Positions 15,251 to 59,520 of a stretch of 64,000 bases of DNA are shown here, piece after piece; position 1 is the stretch's first letter, and every line of letters begins with the position of its first letter. The stretch is from Pseudopyrenochaeta lycopersici (lineage: Eukaryota; Ascomycota; Dothideomycetes; Pleosporales; Pseudopyrenochaetaceae), in the NCBI GenBank assembly GCA_003313425.1, contig NHZP01000004.1, forward strand, positions 1,674,001 through 1,738,000. Reading direction: 5' to 3'. Position numbers and translations under genes: made by a program. The notes below the pieces were generated by a model. The model saw only the letters and a list, made by a program, of their open reading frames with translations. It searched no databases and had not been told where the DNA came from.

Positions 15251-18200
15251 TCAGCTATGTATTGATGCCCGACTGGAGGCCGCTACATTGCCGTCCCAGA
15301 GCTTCACTGTCTTTACAGTGGGGTGCCTGGGCTCATGGCACGAGAAAATGTTGACGTGGTTGTCGTGTACTGCCGCAGCAGCGATCATTAGTCGATGAGG
15401 GTGGAATGCGGTTGCAGAAATAGGGGCGGAGCGGTCGCGAAGGAATCCTGAGTAGGGCTCGAAGTACGACACGGGCTGCCCGTTGTTGATGTTGAAAATT
15501 TTGACACGATGCTTCTGTGTCCCACTGCAAGAATCAGCATGCGTGTCAAATTGATCAGATGCACAGGACTTACGTGGCGAAGACCGGTGCATGCTCATGC
15601 ACGCTGAGTGTACGCAGATGGTCCGTTGTCGCCTGGATAGTTTTCACACTCTGATCCATGCGAATATCCCACAGCTTAACCTCTCCGCTGCGGCAACCGC
15701 TAACAAGCTCACGCTGCCCACCGCGCTGTAGATGAACATTAGTGATCCATTGCTTGTGTTCTTTCCAGACTTTGACCATAGCAGTGGCAGGCTTCTGGCG
15801 TTGATCATAGACTCGAATAGCACCATCACCGAAACCAGCGACAAAAACATCGCCTTCCACTTGATCCGAAGTCAATGAAGTAATACAGGAGCCCGATCGT
15901 GCCGGCAGGTCCTAAGAGTGTCAGCGTGATCGGTACACTCAACGAAAGGTTTAACTTACGCTTGTGCATACTTCAGTCCCAGCGTTCCAAACTCGAATGA
16001 CCTTGACGTCTCCCGCAACCAATACTAAGCCCCGCCCTTGCTGCCAGTCAAATACGAGCCCGGCATTCTTGTTGCTTGGGACCAGATCAGTCAAAGCTCG
16101 GAACCCTGTTACCAGCTCCGTTTCTCCTTTGCGATCATAATTACGGAAAATCTTGATGACCCCGTCTGAGGAACCAGTCATCAACAAGGCTTGATCATCT
16201 TCATTGATGAATCGAACTTCTGTTATCTTCGAGTCCAAGGGATTGCCATTAGAAAAACAATTGATCCTACTGACGGCTTTGGAATAATCGATGACGTTGA
16301 CAGTGTCTCGATTGTCCGTTACCACAAGGTGATCCTCGAATTGATGGAAACACATTTTTTGAGGTTGGCTGAGGTTATCAAAGTAGCCTCTAGGGACGTC
16401 CCAACGATTAGAAACTGCAATGTCCTTCAGAGGCTGTGTTTCGGCAATGATCTTGTCATTACGATTTCTTCGCCAAAGCCGGCCATTATAGTCCGTACTA
16501 CCTGGCTCATCAGCCTCCGTCGGCTTCATTTGTGGCTCACGGAAGTATTCCACAGACCACTCAAAGAACACGCTTTGTAAGGGTATTTCTGGTTTCTCGG
16601 TCAGGCTTCGAGGCTTGAAGCCTCGCGATTTCGGCTCTTCTTCAACATGATACTTCTCCGGTGTTTGAGGTCGCGATTCTGTAGTGGAAACATGTATGTC
16701 ATCGACTTTTGCTCTTCCTGGTGGCTTCTGGGATGTATCGTGGCCAGCCCAAAGGCTCTTAAGTGAAGCACCAACACTCGTGGACTTGCGCAACCCACCG
16801 AAAAGCGACAGGTAACTAGAATCTTTGGTTGGCGTAGGGGGATTCGAGACTTTCTGCGGAGTAAAGCTCTCTTCCTGCATGCGACGTACAGGACGAATAG
16901 TTGGCATGCTTTGAGGAACTTCTTCCAGATGTGGCTGTATAAATTTTGCAAGCGAGGACTCAATGAGAGCGATCAAGATGTAATCGACGACAACTCCGGC
17001 ATCTTTAGCAATTTCGGGATGCGGGTCGACTGACATGACCAGCATTTCCTTCCATACTGCAGAATATATTGTGTTTTGAGAGCAAGAGCTTGACCACATC
17101 GAACTTCCGTTTGTTGTTGCTCGCAATTTCATATAAAGTTCGTCGCCATTTCGGTCTTCCAACTGTGTTGAGAAAGCACTGTTATTCTCTTGAGAGAAAT
17201 GCTCAAATGCCGCGACGATGAATCTTGTCTTGTAGCGAGCGACGAATGTTGAGAAGAAGATTAGCAATTCTCGCCGAACCATACTGTTGCCATCCATTGT
17301 CATGACCAGAATCATAGATGCAATCGACTCTTCGATGTTGGCTACCTGGGCGGTGACATCTCGAATGCCTAGGAAGGAAGTTAACGCATGAAGCATCGCA
17401 GCCCGAACTTCAGCCACGGGGTCAACGATCAGCTCGCATAGCCGCTCGTGAGCCATGCACCGAATCCCCACCCATTTGGCTTCTTCATAATTGACCCAGA
17501 GCTTACTCAGACAGAGACACGACCACTGTCTGAGTAAAGGATTTTGCATGTCCTTGAGATGGTCGAGACAACTCTCCACAAGCTCTGCGCTTAGTGACGC
17601 ACGTTGACCTTGGTTGTAGTCTTTGCAAAACATAGACACGATGAAGGCACACATTGCACGGTGCTCACTCGCATTCTGAATGGGAATACCTGAGTCATGT
17701 TAGCATGCAATGGTAGAATGTAGACGCCAGGCAAACTTACCTGAATTTGGATTGAATATATTGATGAAATACTGATAACCATTGTCTTTGAGTAGATCGG
17801 CCTGGCAAGACTGATCTACTGCAAGAATACGAGCCCAAATAAAGACCATAACGGGCTTGAGTTCATTTGCTTGTGATTGTAAAAGCTTGAGCACATAAGG
17901 AAAAATACCGATACTGAGCGCTAAGTTCACAGCCCATGGGCCATGATCCAAGAAACTTGAGAGGAGAATAAGTGCACGGAGTCGATGGACCTGACTGAGG
18001 AGAACCTGAAGCACGATGGGTAGCTGCTCTGGAATCTTTTGCTCCACAGCACCCTGTGTCAAATAAACTTCAAAAGCAGTCAACTGCTCAGAAAAAAATT
18101 CCGAGTGTTTGTAAACATAGTCCTTCTCGCCACGAGCTTCCGCTTGCAGATCTGGAAGTTGGGCCAAAATCAGCTCAACAGCAAGATCCCAGCTACGCCA

Positions 18201-28590: not shown

Positions 28591-29576
28591 ATGGGTAGCC
28601 GTTCGAAGAAATATGCGGCAATGCTGCAGGGTGATGATTTGTCTCCGCTGGAGAAAGTTCAGAAATGGGTAAGACGATCAATATGGGGACTGCGTTGAAC
28701 ACAACTGACTTGTGGCTGCAAACGTTTAGGTCGGTGCTCTCAGACAGAATGGCCACCATTTGTGCTGACGGCTCTGGCTAGTTCGAGCTCGCCTCAGAAG
28801 ACTACGATGCAAGTAGATTCTTCTATACAATTGAGGTTGTAGTTCTAACACAACGTCTTTTAGGGCCACGATGCAATTCTGTCCAAGATCTTGAAGCTTG
28901 AGTCGGTCACCTGTCGACCTACAAGTGCCAGCCCCCATGATTCCCGCACAGTCTTTAGTTTCATCGTCCCCCGCGAATTGTGTAATATGGCTGGCAATCT
29001 TCATGGTGGCGCCGTTGCATTGATTTTCGATGTAACGACATCTACAGCCATTACTGCTTGTAGCCGCGAAGGCTTTTATGACACAGGTCATGTTTCTCGC
29101 AATCGGTACAACTCCCGGATGCGACTCTTTAAGAGCTGCTGCTAATGATGCCGCAGTAAGTGCGCCCCTGAGAGGTGACAGCTGGGGGTGTTTCGAACCC
29201 GGTTATCGTGTGATGCAAAATAAGAGCAGAAATGCAAAACAACCGTAGTGTTTGCTAATTGCGCTGGCGCTGTCAACAGTCAATTGCACGTATTTAAGGC
29301 CAGCGCCTGAGGGCGCCAAAGTCGTACGAAACCCCTTATGTACGAACTGCACGCGAGACTTTCACTGACTTTACTTGCCCATTTTTAGTTCGTTGAAAGC
29401 TGGGTGGTGCATTTAGGAAAGCGAATGGGGCTTACGATGGGCACGATGAGGTTGGATTCGGAGGATGGCAAGGTGTGCTATACCTGCGAGCACGGCAAGG
29501 TAAGCTGCCTATGCTCTCCTACCATGCTTCATCTACTTATAGCCCATAGGCTGCTATAGGGTCATCAAGCCTGTGA
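28591..29576 (+). CDS. hotdog-fold acyl-CoA thioesterase (PaaI/THEM2-like), with stwintron and GC-AG intron
   Basis: Six exons: 28591-28668, 28782-28808, 28864-29104, 29280-29323, 29389-29499 and 29550-29576, total 175 residues. The hotdog signature [16 protein letters not shown] (residues 76-91) holds the Asn, His-Gly-Gly and Asp active-site positions of the 4HBT/THEM2 family. The second half has HVSRN-LNCTYLRP, then [10 protein letters not shown], then YTCEHGK, and a short tail AAIGSSSL. Such enzymes hydrolyse medium or long acyl-CoA, often at mitochondria. Splicing is intricate: intron 1 is 113 nt, intron 2 is GC-AG (28809-28863), and intron 3 is a twin intron (29105-29279). With these readings the gene is intact; ordinary splicing makes it look like a pseudogene. 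Confidence 0.85.
28809..28863 (+). other. GC-AG intron 2 of the thioesterase gene
   Basis: 55 nt, donor GAT|GCAAGT, the preferred form of a GC donor. Branch TTCTAAC and acceptor CTTTTAG are normal. The nearby GT at 28812 as donor would shift the frame, while the GC donor joins EDYD to GHDAILSK in frame. Confidence 0.7.
29105..29279 (+). other. [D1,2]-type spliceosomal twin intron (stwintron) in the thioesterase gene
   Basis: The internal intron is 29106-29156 (51 nt; GTACAA, branch CTAAT, acceptor CCGCAG). It sits between G29105 and T29157. Its removal creates the donor G+TAAGTG for the external intron (G29105 plus 29157-29279), which has branch GCTAAT near 29254 and acceptor CAACAG. The join gives [16 protein letters not shown], the expected family sequence, in frame. 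Using GT at 29106 with the final acceptor shifts the frame. Confidence 0.8.
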
Positions 29577-54100: not shown

Positions 54101-56576
54101 TCAAGGCATTGTGAGCCCAAGAGAATCGTCTAGAACAATACCAATTGATTGGTGTTCCAACTTTTCGGGACCCAGTCCCAACAACAAATCTGCTGGAGTG
54201 GGAAGGTTATGCAGAGTGGTCCTGGCACTGGCGACTGGTACGTAAGGGAATACAATAGTTGGAAGATTGGGCGTCCGAGGCAGTGCAGTTGAAGGGACCG
54301 CAGAAGTTGAGGGCTTTGGACCGGCGACTTCAGTCGTACGACTAGTAAAGGCTTTCGTATCCCCAAGAGCGTCAGACCTGCCGCTGGTAATTGTAATTTG
54401 TTGATGCTGACCAGAGCTAAAGTTACAAGACTGATCATGCGTTATCGGCGAGACATTTGAATGAGAAGTCGTCGATGGGAGTTTGAGTGTCGCTAAAGGG
54501 TTGATGTGAATTCCATCGTTAGTGACGAAGATATTTAGTGGTGTTTCATGAGTACTCAATGGTGGTGGAGGAATGGCGGACGAGGATGCCGGATTTGCAT
54601 CAGCCCACTGTAAGATGTTTCGATTCAGTGTAATTGGGCTTTTGGCGCCTTCTAAATCTTCTGAGACCGCGTCATCATCTAATAGAGTAGGCAATAAATC
54701 AGGAAAATATGGCGCTAGTCCCAAAGACCTGAAAGTCGAAGCTGTTGGTGGAAAAGATGTCGTGATAGAAACAAGTTCACTTTTGCCTTGTAGTCGTCCT
54801 GTTTCTAGGTTGGGTAAAAGCTCTTTGCCTCCCACAGACGATAGCTGTGTTGCGTTTGCGTCTCTGGAGGGCTCCAGAAGTGACTGATGTTCATGTCCGA
54901 GACGTTCATTCATGCGGTCTTCCACAATCCGCTCCTCTTTTGGCTTCAATTTGTAGCCAGCCTTGGCGTATTTCTCCGGATATCTAATCCGAAAACGGTC
55001 CCGTAAGTCTGTCGGATGACGTGTATTAAACCCCAGCTCCGTGTCATCGCGTATGGTATGCCAAACGGGTCCGTACTTTTCAAATCCTACCAATAGATTT
55101 TTGTCATCGTGTGCACTGAATCTGCGCCGTGGTCGACGCGTGCTTTTGAGAAAAGGCTCGCGTATGCCCAAATCAGCCAAATCAACCAACGCCTTGCAGT
55201 GGACGAGTTCATGCTGTTGCTCCGTGATGCGCTTCTTCATTGTCACGTCAGCGCAGGGTCTATTAATACCAAGAATTCTTGTACTATTAAACGTCTGATT
55301 TGCTTCTGTAGCTTTCTCAGACGGATGGTCCGTAAAGGTGTGCCGTCGCTTTTCTTTCCGGAGTCTTTGGCTGTCACTAGGGCAACAGACGCGGAATCGA
55401 TCTTTCACTGGTAACGAAAACACAGTTAGCGGATACTCAAAACACAAGACAAGTACCCATTTCTCAGCTCTTGCACGTCATCGAGCATGGGTCAAAGTGG
55501 ACCTCTCCTTTTGGGTGGGTCAATAGATGGAAAGGTGAGGCATGGCTTACTATCAAGGTTAGCAAAGATATCTCAGCAGTCACTGTGTATAGGGTTCGAT
55601 ACCAGTCAACCGCAGTCCGCCCATTGAATTCAAACTCAGGATCTTGCAATATTTTCTTCCAGTTGCCAATACCAAATCTGCTGACACCGACAAGAAGGTG
55701 CCTGGTCTCTTTCTCTGACCACCTGTTCCGTTTCTTGCTACGCTTGTTTTTGCTATTGCATTCAGATAATGTTCCTCTGTTTGACACGTTGGGCACTTTA
55801 TCCCCTGTCACTCTTTTTGATGGCGAGATTCTAGGCACCACAGGGTGTTCCTCGACACTCTTATCATTCTGAGAGACTCTAACCGTTTCTACCACATCGG
55901 CTCCAGAACGAGTGTTTATATCTTCCGTTCTATCTGGTATCTCTTCAATGTATGTGTCGTAGCCAAGTCTTTCTCCTTGACTCCTTGGAAATGCATTCTT
56001 TTCACTGGTGATAGGTGGGAAAAGCCTACCTTCAGGCGGTAGTGGGGGCGGCTGGTGCAGACCTTGTAGCAAGGGTGGTATTCTGGGCCTTTTCACCGTT
56101 TTCTGTGGTAGTTGCGGTAGCTTCGGAAGCTTGATCACAGCATTCTCGCACACTGCCGCTGCAGACTGTATAGGGCGCTGTTCCCACTCCCTTCGCTTGC
56201 TAATTTCCTCTGAGCCATCCAACAAAAGATCAACAAGCCTCCCGCTGAAAGGTGCAGTTGGAGAAATGAGGGGTGGAACTCCCAGAGGCAAGGTATGAAG
56301 CATTGGAACCTCATTGTTCAAGACCTGTGCTATTGGGGCACCTGGTCCCGGTCGATTCGAGGAGGTATGTGTCTGCACTTGTGTGCGATGATGGTATTTT
56401 GAATTGAAGTCGCGAGGCCAGGAACTTCCCAGCACAGGCGCATCATCGCCACCGGACAGAGGCTCGACTGGATGCGTTCTAGGTGCGTTGGCCGGCGGTC
56501 TCATATAAGATATGGATTCGTGTACAGTCCTTTCTTCATGTGGAATGTCCAATAGAGTGGCTATTCGAGGCTCCAT
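54101..56576 (-). CDS. double-Myb telobox DNA-binding protein (Teb1/TRF-like), with stwintron
   Basis: Minus-strand exons 56576-55604 and 55407-54101, 759 residues. Two Myb/SANT repeats are visible. Repeat 1, ~280-332, runs RWSEKETRHLLVGVSRFG to the telobox VDLKDRFR, which is built across the intron. Repeat 2, ~420-471, runs RRFSAHDDKNLLVGFEKYG to TDLRDRFR. Proteins with this motif bind TTAGGG-type repeats; the tandem form resembles fission-yeast Teb1, a promoter-binding regulator. Role at telomeres or promoters is open. The flanks are Pro/Ser-rich and disordered. The intron is a twin intron (own entry). Frame stays open upstream of 56576 without an ATG, so an extra 5' exon is possible. Confidence 0.85.
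55408..55603 (-). other. [D1,2]-type stwintron in the telobox-Myb gene
   Basis: Minus strand. The internal intron is 55602-55550 (53 nt; GTATCG, branch TTGCTAACC, acceptor TGATAG), between G55603 and T55549. Its removal creates G+TAAGCC, a GTAAGC donor. The external intron (G55603 plus 55549-55408) has branch GCTAAC and acceptor TTACCAG. The product joins VD to LKDRFR, completing the telobox. A single GT-AG intron from 55602 to 55408 breaks the frame, and I found no other in-frame GT-AG pair. Confidence 0.85.
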
Positions 56577-57338: not shown

Positions 57339-58366
57339 TCAAGACGTCCCTGCGCCACAGATTAGCAAGCCGTCATAACGGCTATGCATCGCTTTCCAAG
57401 CGGACAGCATGAAGGGGGAAAATCCATACCGTTTGTTTTGGCAACATCTGACATTTTGGTATCGGCATGGACTTTGTCGAGGTAGACTTTATTGCCCTGG
57501 GGCGTCGCCTTGATAGTTTCATCACCGGGGTTCCAGTTCGCAGGGCAGACCTATTCATTTGCGTGAGTATATAGAGGTGTGTATATGTCATGAGGATGGC
57601 TTTGGAGGGGGGGTGGGGTAGTCGTAGGGATGGGAGACGGGGGTGCGAAGACGTACTTCGCCGTATTTGTCTGTGAATTGGAAGGCGTCGATTAGGCGGA
57701 GGGTCTCGTCTACGCTGCGGCCGACGGGGAGGTCGTTGATTGTGATCTGGTGGAGTGTGTGTTAGCTTTGCTTGAGGGAGTTCGCATCATGGCTAATAAA
57801 TGTTCTGTGTGTACGTCTTGTCTGAGGTGAGTAGACGTACCTGTCTGATAATGCCATGTGGATCAATGAGGAACAACCCTCTCAATGCGATGCCCTCCTC
57901 CTCAATTAACACTCCATAGTCCTTGCTGACACTGTGGTTCTTATCGCTCAGCAGCGGGATGTTGATCTTCCCTAGTCCACCGTCCTTCTTACTTGCGTTT
58001 GTCCATGCTAGCAAGCTGTATTCGCTGTCGGTACTCGCAAAGACAACGCTTGCGCCGCGGGCGGCAAAGTCGGAGGCTCGCTCGCTAAAGGCGATTATCT
58101 CAGTCGGACATACGAAGGTCCAAGCCATGGGGACGAAGCCGAGGACTAGCCATTGCTTGGTTGATGTGTAGGCTGTTAAACTGAGTTCTGCGGTGAAATG
58201 TCAGCATGCGCTGGGTTTGGGTGAAACACATGGATAGATTTCGGCGCCTTCGGTGAGATTGATATGCAGACGTACCTTCAAATGTGCCATCGACGACTGC
58301 TGTGCCTGAGAAATGCGGTGCGGGTCTCTGCACCCTCGCCTTGGGTGTGTAGGCCGGGTACGCCAT
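57339..58366 (-). CDS. typical 2-Cys peroxiredoxin (Tsa1-like)
   Basis: Minus-strand exons 58366-58276, 58187-57841, 57746-57657, 57550-57430 and 57349-57339 give 219 residues. The peroxidatic Cys is C57 in TFVCPTE, and the resolving Cys is C178 in [15 protein letters not shown] (~105) is the motif linked to sensitivity to over-oxidation, but the usual C-terminal YF motif is not seen; the tail is [23 protein letters not shown]. The enzyme reduces H2O2 and alkyl hydroperoxides using thioredoxin. No clear targeting peptide follows the chosen ATG. Introns here (80-106 nt) are longer than elsewhere. The last exon (11 nt) is the least certain part. Confidence 0.88.
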
Positions 58367-59520
58367 TACAAAGGTCCGCGATCTGGCCGGCAAGAATACG
58401 GTAGATGATGCGACGCGGATTCGGGAGTCCGGTGGAAATGACAGCCTTGGTCGAACCCAAGAAGCGGTCCGTCAAACTCGAGAAGCTTCACTGGGATCGG
58501 ATATATTAAATGTTGCACAACGGCGGGATGCTTTCGCGTGAGACGGTACAGATGTCGCGTGGAGTTTTTGGGCGGGAGGCACCGAGCGATTATGTACGTA
58601 AAGGCAAGTTAATAATATCAAGGCGCAAAAGGGATTGAAAGTTCAAAGTAAATCAGCAGATAATTTGCGACAGCAGACACGCGTCTACTTTGGGAACAGC
58701 CTCGCTTCAGCTAAGCGTTCCAGGTTCTGCACAACTCGGACGCTTTCTGCACGCATCTCGCCGGTAGGAATGGCCCTAGCAAGCTTCGGAGAGCCGCAGG
58801 CGCGAAGCTTCCAGAGACAACTCGCCACGGGCCGTTGAACTATGACAACCGTTCGATATCTTCCGTCATCGGCGTCCTCGGCATCGCAACAGGGTCGAGG
58901 CTGGCCTGCTTATGTGTGCCGACCGCCGTCACCTATACGTTCATATCGCTCTGCACTCAATCACGAGCTTGGTCGGATGATTGTTACACCAAACCGCAAT
59001 ACGGGGAACTGCAAGGAGGAACACGGCCTCGCTTGAGTGTGCGGTTGATTGAACAAGCGACTTAGCGGAGCACTTGAGACATTTCCTGTGCCTCCAAATT
59101 GTACCTGCATGGTCTTCGAGACAGAGCCATGCCATGGCGCTTACACAAGTGTATCAGGCGTGCCACTATTGGCCGATCAGAAACGCCTGGTCACGGGAGA
59201 GCGCGCATTGCCCGTGCGAAGTCGGCGTCTTGTGGAGCCTGCCGTCATCGTGCGGTGCTCTGACTCTGAGCATGTTTTCGGGGTTTAAAAATTTAATCGG
59301 CGACCTACCTGGAGTCACTGAAAGATTTCGAGGGGCGTGCTGGCACCCGTGCTGATGATCAATCAGCCGAAGCGATGACAAACATAGACTCGCCGCAAGC
59401 TAAGGTCGATCGTGTATGGTTATGACAATTTACTGTGGATTGCAAACTCTACTCATTTATGTAATTGTACAGTGTGTAATGTCTAGCTCCATTGGCCATG
59501 TTCTACCCTTATCCCACTGC
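58367..59520. other. intergenic region, no supported gene
   Basis: Holds the peroxiredoxin promoter and the 3' flank of the transporter gene. Several short frames on both strands, none with motifs. Confidence 0.45.

Follow-up and report, generated by a model that had tools for sequence, protein, structure and literature searches.

The window, by which we mean the whole 64-kb stretch of Pseudopyrenochaeta lycopersici DNA analysed here, encodes on its minus strand a protein with two telobox Myb domains (Myb 1 identified by Pfam and PDB comparison, both by homologue alignment). Pfam finds two Myb stretches, the best match to PF00249 being at residues 283-330 of the spliced protein. The nearest solved chains in the PDB are the Mybs of TRF1, TRF2 and Terfa, whose equivalent helix aligns with the peptide RTAVDLKDRFR, taken here as the Myb 1 recognition helix. 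One homologue, P0162 from Elsinoe, carries the name telomere-associated protein 1-like. Tay1 proteins contain two TRF-like Mybs and bind TTAGGG; the window protein has two TRF-like telobox Mybs in common with Tay1/Teb1 but carries them mid-protein (from residue 283), whereas they lie near the N-terminus in Tay1/Teb1 (PMC7952879). Judged by its sequence, the gene is probably Tay1/Teb1-like and its product a predicted telomere protein. TTAGGG arrays, a canonical telomere repeat, occur in the genome (62.7 Mb in 188 contigs), several of them at contig ends (e.g. C5, C17, C54 and C77), which goes as far as making telomere binding plausible. A genome search with the double-Myb region returned one good match, the gene itself, and two weak matches containing stops (E 0.016 and 0.028); the gene is apparently single copy. 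A peroxiredoxin gene adjoins it upstream on the same strand (window positions ~57350-58370, minus). The Curvularia clavata model P0035 (942 aa) merges the peroxiredoxin and Myb genes, whose order is conserved there; this fused model is probably wrong.

The codons for the Myb 1 helix are interrupted by 196 bases (55603-55408), which we read as a spliceosomal twin intron (stwintron) composed of the following parts:

55604..56576, minus strand: exon 1, from the ATG at 56576 to the first base of the Leu codon, ending in RTAVD plus T (open frame); it contains most of telobox Myb 1 (Pfam Myb PF00249)
55391..55619, minus strand: codons of RTAVD-L-KDRFR, the Myb 1 recognition helix (alignment to TRF1 and Terfa Myb chains in the PDB)
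55603..55603, minus strand: G1 of the external donor, isolated by the internal intron (nested-pair enumeration)
55550..55602, minus strand: internal intron of 53 nt, with donor GTATCG, branch GCTAAC and acceptor TAG (TTTGCTAACCTTGATAG at its 3' end)
55558..55563, minus strand: branch-point motif GCTAAC of the internal intron, in the region compatible with homologues P0121 and P0126
55408..55549, minus strand: remainder of the external intron, with TAAGCC to follow G1, branch GCTAAC and acceptor TTACCAG
54101..55407, minus strand: exon 2, comprising the last two Leu bases, KDRFR, the linker, telobox Myb 2, the C-terminal region and the stop at 54101

With both introns excised, a 759-codon open frame containing RTAVDLKDRFR runs from the ATG at 56576 to the stop at 54101. 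The interruption splits the helix codons after the first base of Leu (phase 1), and exon 2 starts with TG AAA GAT CGA TTC CGC, as defined by the open frame and by alignment to homologues. The internal intron separates G1 from T2 of the external donor, which is the [D1,2] arrangement, and the external intron amounts to 143 nt in total (G55603 plus 55549-55408). Branch and acceptor motifs are present in both introns (GCTAAC...TAG in the internal, GCTAAC...CAG in the external one). The external donor, GTAAGC, belongs to the published list of 24 donors; the internal donor, GTATCG, does not, and it has no G at position 5, the usual base there. The motifs and coordinates given by an earlier, sequence-only reading of this DNA (internal intron 55602-55550, TAAGCC, the rebuilt donor and TTACCAG) are all correct. 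We infer two-step splicing in the cell: the spliceosome would first excise the short internal intron 55602-55550, joining G1 to TAAGCC and thereby creating the external donor, and a second round would excise the external intron and restore VDLKDRFR. This order would be obligatory; removal of the external intron first, from the G at 55550, would cost the internal intron its acceptor AG and bring in an immediate stop codon.

We enumerated nested GT-AG pairs at the locus (internal introns of 40-200 nt inside 55680-55380, outer introns of 40-260 nt) and found exactly one that yields RTAVDxKDRFR. No single GT-AG intron yielding VDxKDRFR was found with donors at 55780-55431 and acceptors down to 55251. 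When the single-intron classes GT-AG, GC-AG, AT-AC and GG-AG were enumerated, the rarer of these at lengths below 260 nt, the only intron giving an identical mRNA among the matches listed was GG-AG, at 55603-55408. The sequence-only reading had placed a stwintron inside the telobox helix and had claimed that only nested removal joins VD to LKDRFR; the twin-intron reading and its place in the helix are supported by the enumeration and by the comparison with relatives. It had also stated that there is no in-frame single GT-AG alternative, which holds for the helix motif but not as worded: numerous single GT-AG introns (e.g. 55602-55377) leave a frame open, yet the helix is then deleted or displaced.

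The strict published [D1,2] motif has no match in the 64-kb window on either strand, and it misses the stwintron because GTATCG is absent from its 24 donors. A relaxed motif with a free internal donor has 5 start points in the window, both strands taken together. Two of these, 55611 and 55603, lie here, and one sits exactly at G55603, the base required by the reading frame. In 20 shuffles the relaxed motif had a mean of 2.15 matches (range 0-7) compared with the 5 observed, and is by itself not significant. Because the motif match alone is weak, the weight of the case lies on the reading frame and on the relatives. The other relaxed-motif matches, at 16558 (minus) and at 29086 and 29105 (plus), are within chance in number.

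Among the best 120 of 513 homologues above threshold, the helix is unbroken in 116 (VDLKDRFR in 112, IDLKDRFR in 2 and VDLKDKFR in 2). By source, it is continuous in 50 of the 53 proteins with an NCBI source and in 66 of the 67 found in other collections only. The four discontinuous homologues of this set, P0001, P0002, P0003 and P0006, rank 1, 2, 3 and 6. P0001 begins with MKDRFR. At the junction, P0002 (Cucurbitaria berberidis) reads VDWDSANCAAIKVKDRFR, P0003 (Neocucurbitaria) reads VDCKSNL...WTMKDRFR, and P0006 (Pyrenochaeta) reads VDCMEQQ and skips the helix; the genera of these three belong to the Cucurbitariaceae according to a taxonomy lookup. VDCKS in P0003 can be encoded by GAC TGT AAG TC, as expected if the internal intron alone had been removed, and P0003 could also be read as having the external intron alone. 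All three are gene models and could have failed for other reasons. Each fails differently, which would be consistent with gene finders confronted with a locus that has no simple frame-keeping intron.

A looser pattern applied to all 213 proteins fetched finds 173 continuous and 40 others: 9 break at VD, 15 end at LKD(R/Q), 12 are C-terminal open reading frames (ORFs) without Myb 1, and 4 (P0130, P0137, P0138 and P0181) are broken or different elsewhere. Four of the 12 C-terminal ORFs partner carriers, and the other 8 begin past the junction, with their N-terminal side outside the data. The 15 proteins ending at VDLKD(R/Q) are more distant homologues (P0139, P0143, P0146, P0147, P0151, P0154, P0161, P0167, P0173, P0174, P0177, P0182, P0183, P0185 and P0186). 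Their ends would fit an ordinary intron that interrupts this helix at another position, ~10 nt further downstream, and the Myb 1 helix seems to have acquired introns at two neighbouring positions. One of the C-terminal ORFs without Myb 1, P0191, from a JGI contig of 3,215 bases, opens in non-homologous letters just before FRVCC; it may be a relative of the continuous group with an intron or frameshift at KDR/FR.

A search with the exon-1 ORF located six N-terminal ORFs (P0121-P0126) that lose homology directly after VD. VD is followed by W in four of the six and by R in two, and Y comes next in five. W-Y in P0121, P0122 and P0123 requires TGGTAY, in which a G precedes a GT donor; the leading T, once spliced to the TG of exon 2, yields the conserved Leu in these three carriers. 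R-Y in P0125 and P0126 allows CGG or AGG without requiring either. For four of these N-terminal ORFs there is a C-terminal partner with equal contig size within the pair (P0121/P0001, 48,020; P0123/P0187, 3,953; P0125/P0188, 93,963; P0126/P0190, 7,203), and the partners presumably lie on the same contig. The internal intron of P0121 counts to 51 nt, which fits its frame shift by 2. Its peptide ...FTNFDSKP can be encoded by TTC ACT AAC TTT GAT AGT AAG CCN, and when its tail is set against window DNA 55584-55531, across the branch, the internal acceptor and the external donor, 47 of 54 positions are compatible. This match lies two bases out of frame relative to the window's own read-through, and none of 300 shuffled tails equalled it (best 18 versus 33). 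In P0126 the internal intron counts to 53 nt, without a shift, and fits CTAAC...GCAG/TAAG; here the match covers 21 of 24 positions and is weak, 14 of 300 shuffles being as good. P0122, P0123, P0124 and P0125 end before the end of the internal intron, so that the break is visible and the nested structure lies beyond reach. Back-translation of P0125, P0122 and P0123 was uninformative (60, 9 and 192 of 300 shuffles, respectively, did equally well), and for P0125 and P0122 the best placement lies outside the internal intron. Read through proteins, the nested block thus appears conserved, well shown in one relative, P0121. In all, nine relatives, counting proteins and ORFs, are broken at the same point as the window gene.

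We conclude that the Tay1/Teb1-kind, two-telobox Myb gene, apparently present in a single copy, very probably contains a phase-1 [D1,2] spliceosomal twin intron. The sequence-only reading had further suggested that this intron could work as a switch. In such a reading, regulated retention or mis-splicing would give a shorter protein that has its own role. Partial products would have 343 residues (only the internal intron removed), 334 (distal missplice), 342 (only the external intron removed) or 370 (neither removed), and would stop 10-46 residues after VD, with neither Myb complete. Incomplete splicing would remove Myb 2, as had been suggested, but the Myb 1 recognition helix and the C-terminus would be lost as well. 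A switch could draw on the early stops in all four products, on the weak internal donor and on the distal-site missplicing documented for [D1,2] stwintrons in Xylariales (PMC12403724). The truncated forms, however, contain no complete Myb domain, and a conserved alternative isoform is not seen, because the read-through tails of the six relatives vary in length (1-39 aa) and are unlike in sequence. Published stwintrons are described as overwhelmingly spliced correctly; [D1,2] missplicing is described as infrequent and truncating, with products that are usually turned over (PMC9024468). With all four products stopped early and the tails variable, the switch proposal is not supported and we regard it as unlikely; the partial forms would fit waste destined for decay rather than a second product.

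Alternatively, splicing might use one of the single GT-AG introns that stay in frame, such as 55602-55377, and the protein of this lineage would then truly lack KDRFR. An open frame for this exists, and the Pyrenochaeta model P0006 follows the same pattern, but KDRFR and its flanks persist as exon-2-start codons in P0001, P0002 and P0003, and the three named models disagree with one another, as failures do; we consider this very improbable. One-step removal of 55603-55408 as a non-canonical GG-AG intron would produce the same mRNA and would agree with the TGG before TAY that is certain in P0121, P0122 and P0123. To our knowledge, however, spliceosomal GG donors are practically unheard of, and such an intron leaves the conserved branch/acceptor/external-donor block of P0121 unexplained, which makes it highly implausible. 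We see next to no chance for a decayed gene or a sequencing or assembly error, in which a simple GT-AG intron, 55602-55408, would have one base too many and would leave an extra G and a frameshift. Each exon is a long, conserved open frame, and the TGGTA break is shared by P0121, P0122 and P0123, on other contigs, and is also possible in P0125 and P0126; the sequencing error at 55600-55606 that the sequence-only reading had considered is therefore very unlikely.

To place the twin intron in the history of the gene, we calculated a tree of the exon-1 sequence with 66 rows (10 carriers, window included, and 56 of 107 continuous homologues; rows ending in LKDR were left out). The carriers form one side of a branch with support 96/94, found in 94% of 200 bootstrap trees. 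The nearest continuous groups consist of Alternaria and Pyrenophora proteins and of Plenodomus and Coniothyrium proteins; they include rows found in contig collections only (P0004, P0007, P0011 and P0013, and P0032, P0053, P0057, P0070 and P0090, respectively). These collections are evidently unspliced, because carriers in them are cut at the first stop, and a continuous ORF in them would therefore mean an empty intron position; proteins from NCBI could derive from spliced models and are uninformative on this point. In 66 continuous homologues from contig collections a single ORF spans the site, which looks empty in the sister lineages. A single origin of the stwintron is probable, in the common ancestor of a Cucurbitariaceae clade, a time of gain that we infer from the present carriers, with retention since.

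Among the homologues compared, none was found that certainly has the external intron alone. Gain as one ready-made unit, inserted within the Leu codon after its first base, as opposed to insertion of an intron into an older intron, is a tentative suggestion that we think has the smaller share of the probability; if true, Pleosporales would join Xylariales as a group with whole-stwintron insertion. A search of the genome for sequence-similar stwintron copies, which skips common words and may miss diverged copies, returned only the self-match at E up to 10. We also looked for a terminal inverted repeat or end-to-end hairpin resembling the symmetry in Hypoxylon, and found none beyond shuffles: the near-terminal inverted repeat GGTATCGAA/TTCGTTACC is matched by 21% of 5000 shuffles, and the fold of the stwintron has a z of -1.62, with 13 of 200 shuffles as good. 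CTGGTATCGAA (55605-55595) and TTCGTTACCAG (55418-55408), both on the minus strand, pair at 10 of 11 positions across the stwintron ends; this pairing is suggestive, but the 9-nt part of it that lies inside the stwintron is equalled in 21% of shuffles. A 3-base TGA duplication beside the repeat was dropped as a candidate, since the pre-insertion site it implies would conflict with the conserved VDLKDR.

More than 1500 [D1,2] stwintrons have been reported in Hypoxylaceae (PMC9024468). The structure described here resembles those of Hypoxylaceae and Xylariaceae in that the internal intron lies between G1 and T2, consecutive excision is predicted, missplicing at the distal site leaves a single G behind and so shifts the frame, and many positions are conserved family-wide, again a shared trait (PMC9024468, PMC12403724). 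Unlike these, it is found in Dothideomycetes and in another gene, its internal donor is unlisted, no genome copy was found in our search, and its terminal complementarity is not beyond chance. The [D1,2] stwintron of lipS and the [D2,3] stwintron of bioDA are nested U2 introns that were likewise traced via orthologues, but their positions hold a standard intron in other lineages (PMC5639578), whereas the position studied here is read through as one ORF in the 66 continuous homologues from contig collections. The rtnA [D5,6] stwintron also occurs in Dothideomycetes, including Pleosporales, and differs in that its donor is broken between nucleotides 5 and 6, that it is widespread in Pezizomycotina and that it resides in another gene (PMC6616335). 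The main texts of the stwintron literature searched returned no mention of telomere, Myb or Cucurbitaria, and a literature search combining 'spliceosomal twin intron' and 'telomere' returned one review. The kind of stwintron is thus already known, and the present instance, in the gene of a probable telomere protein, looks new.

The locus provides a well-supported [D1,2] stwintron outside the groups in which this type has mainly been mined, and the comparison with continuous homologues is unusually clear. Public gene models seem broken at this point, three named Cucurbitariaceae proteins departing from the DNA-contacting helix, and further stwintrons could be sought where the gene models of a whole family go wrong at a conserved motif. 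If the position is empty in the sister lineages, as it appears to be, the origin of a nested intron becomes testable by comparing a few genomes.
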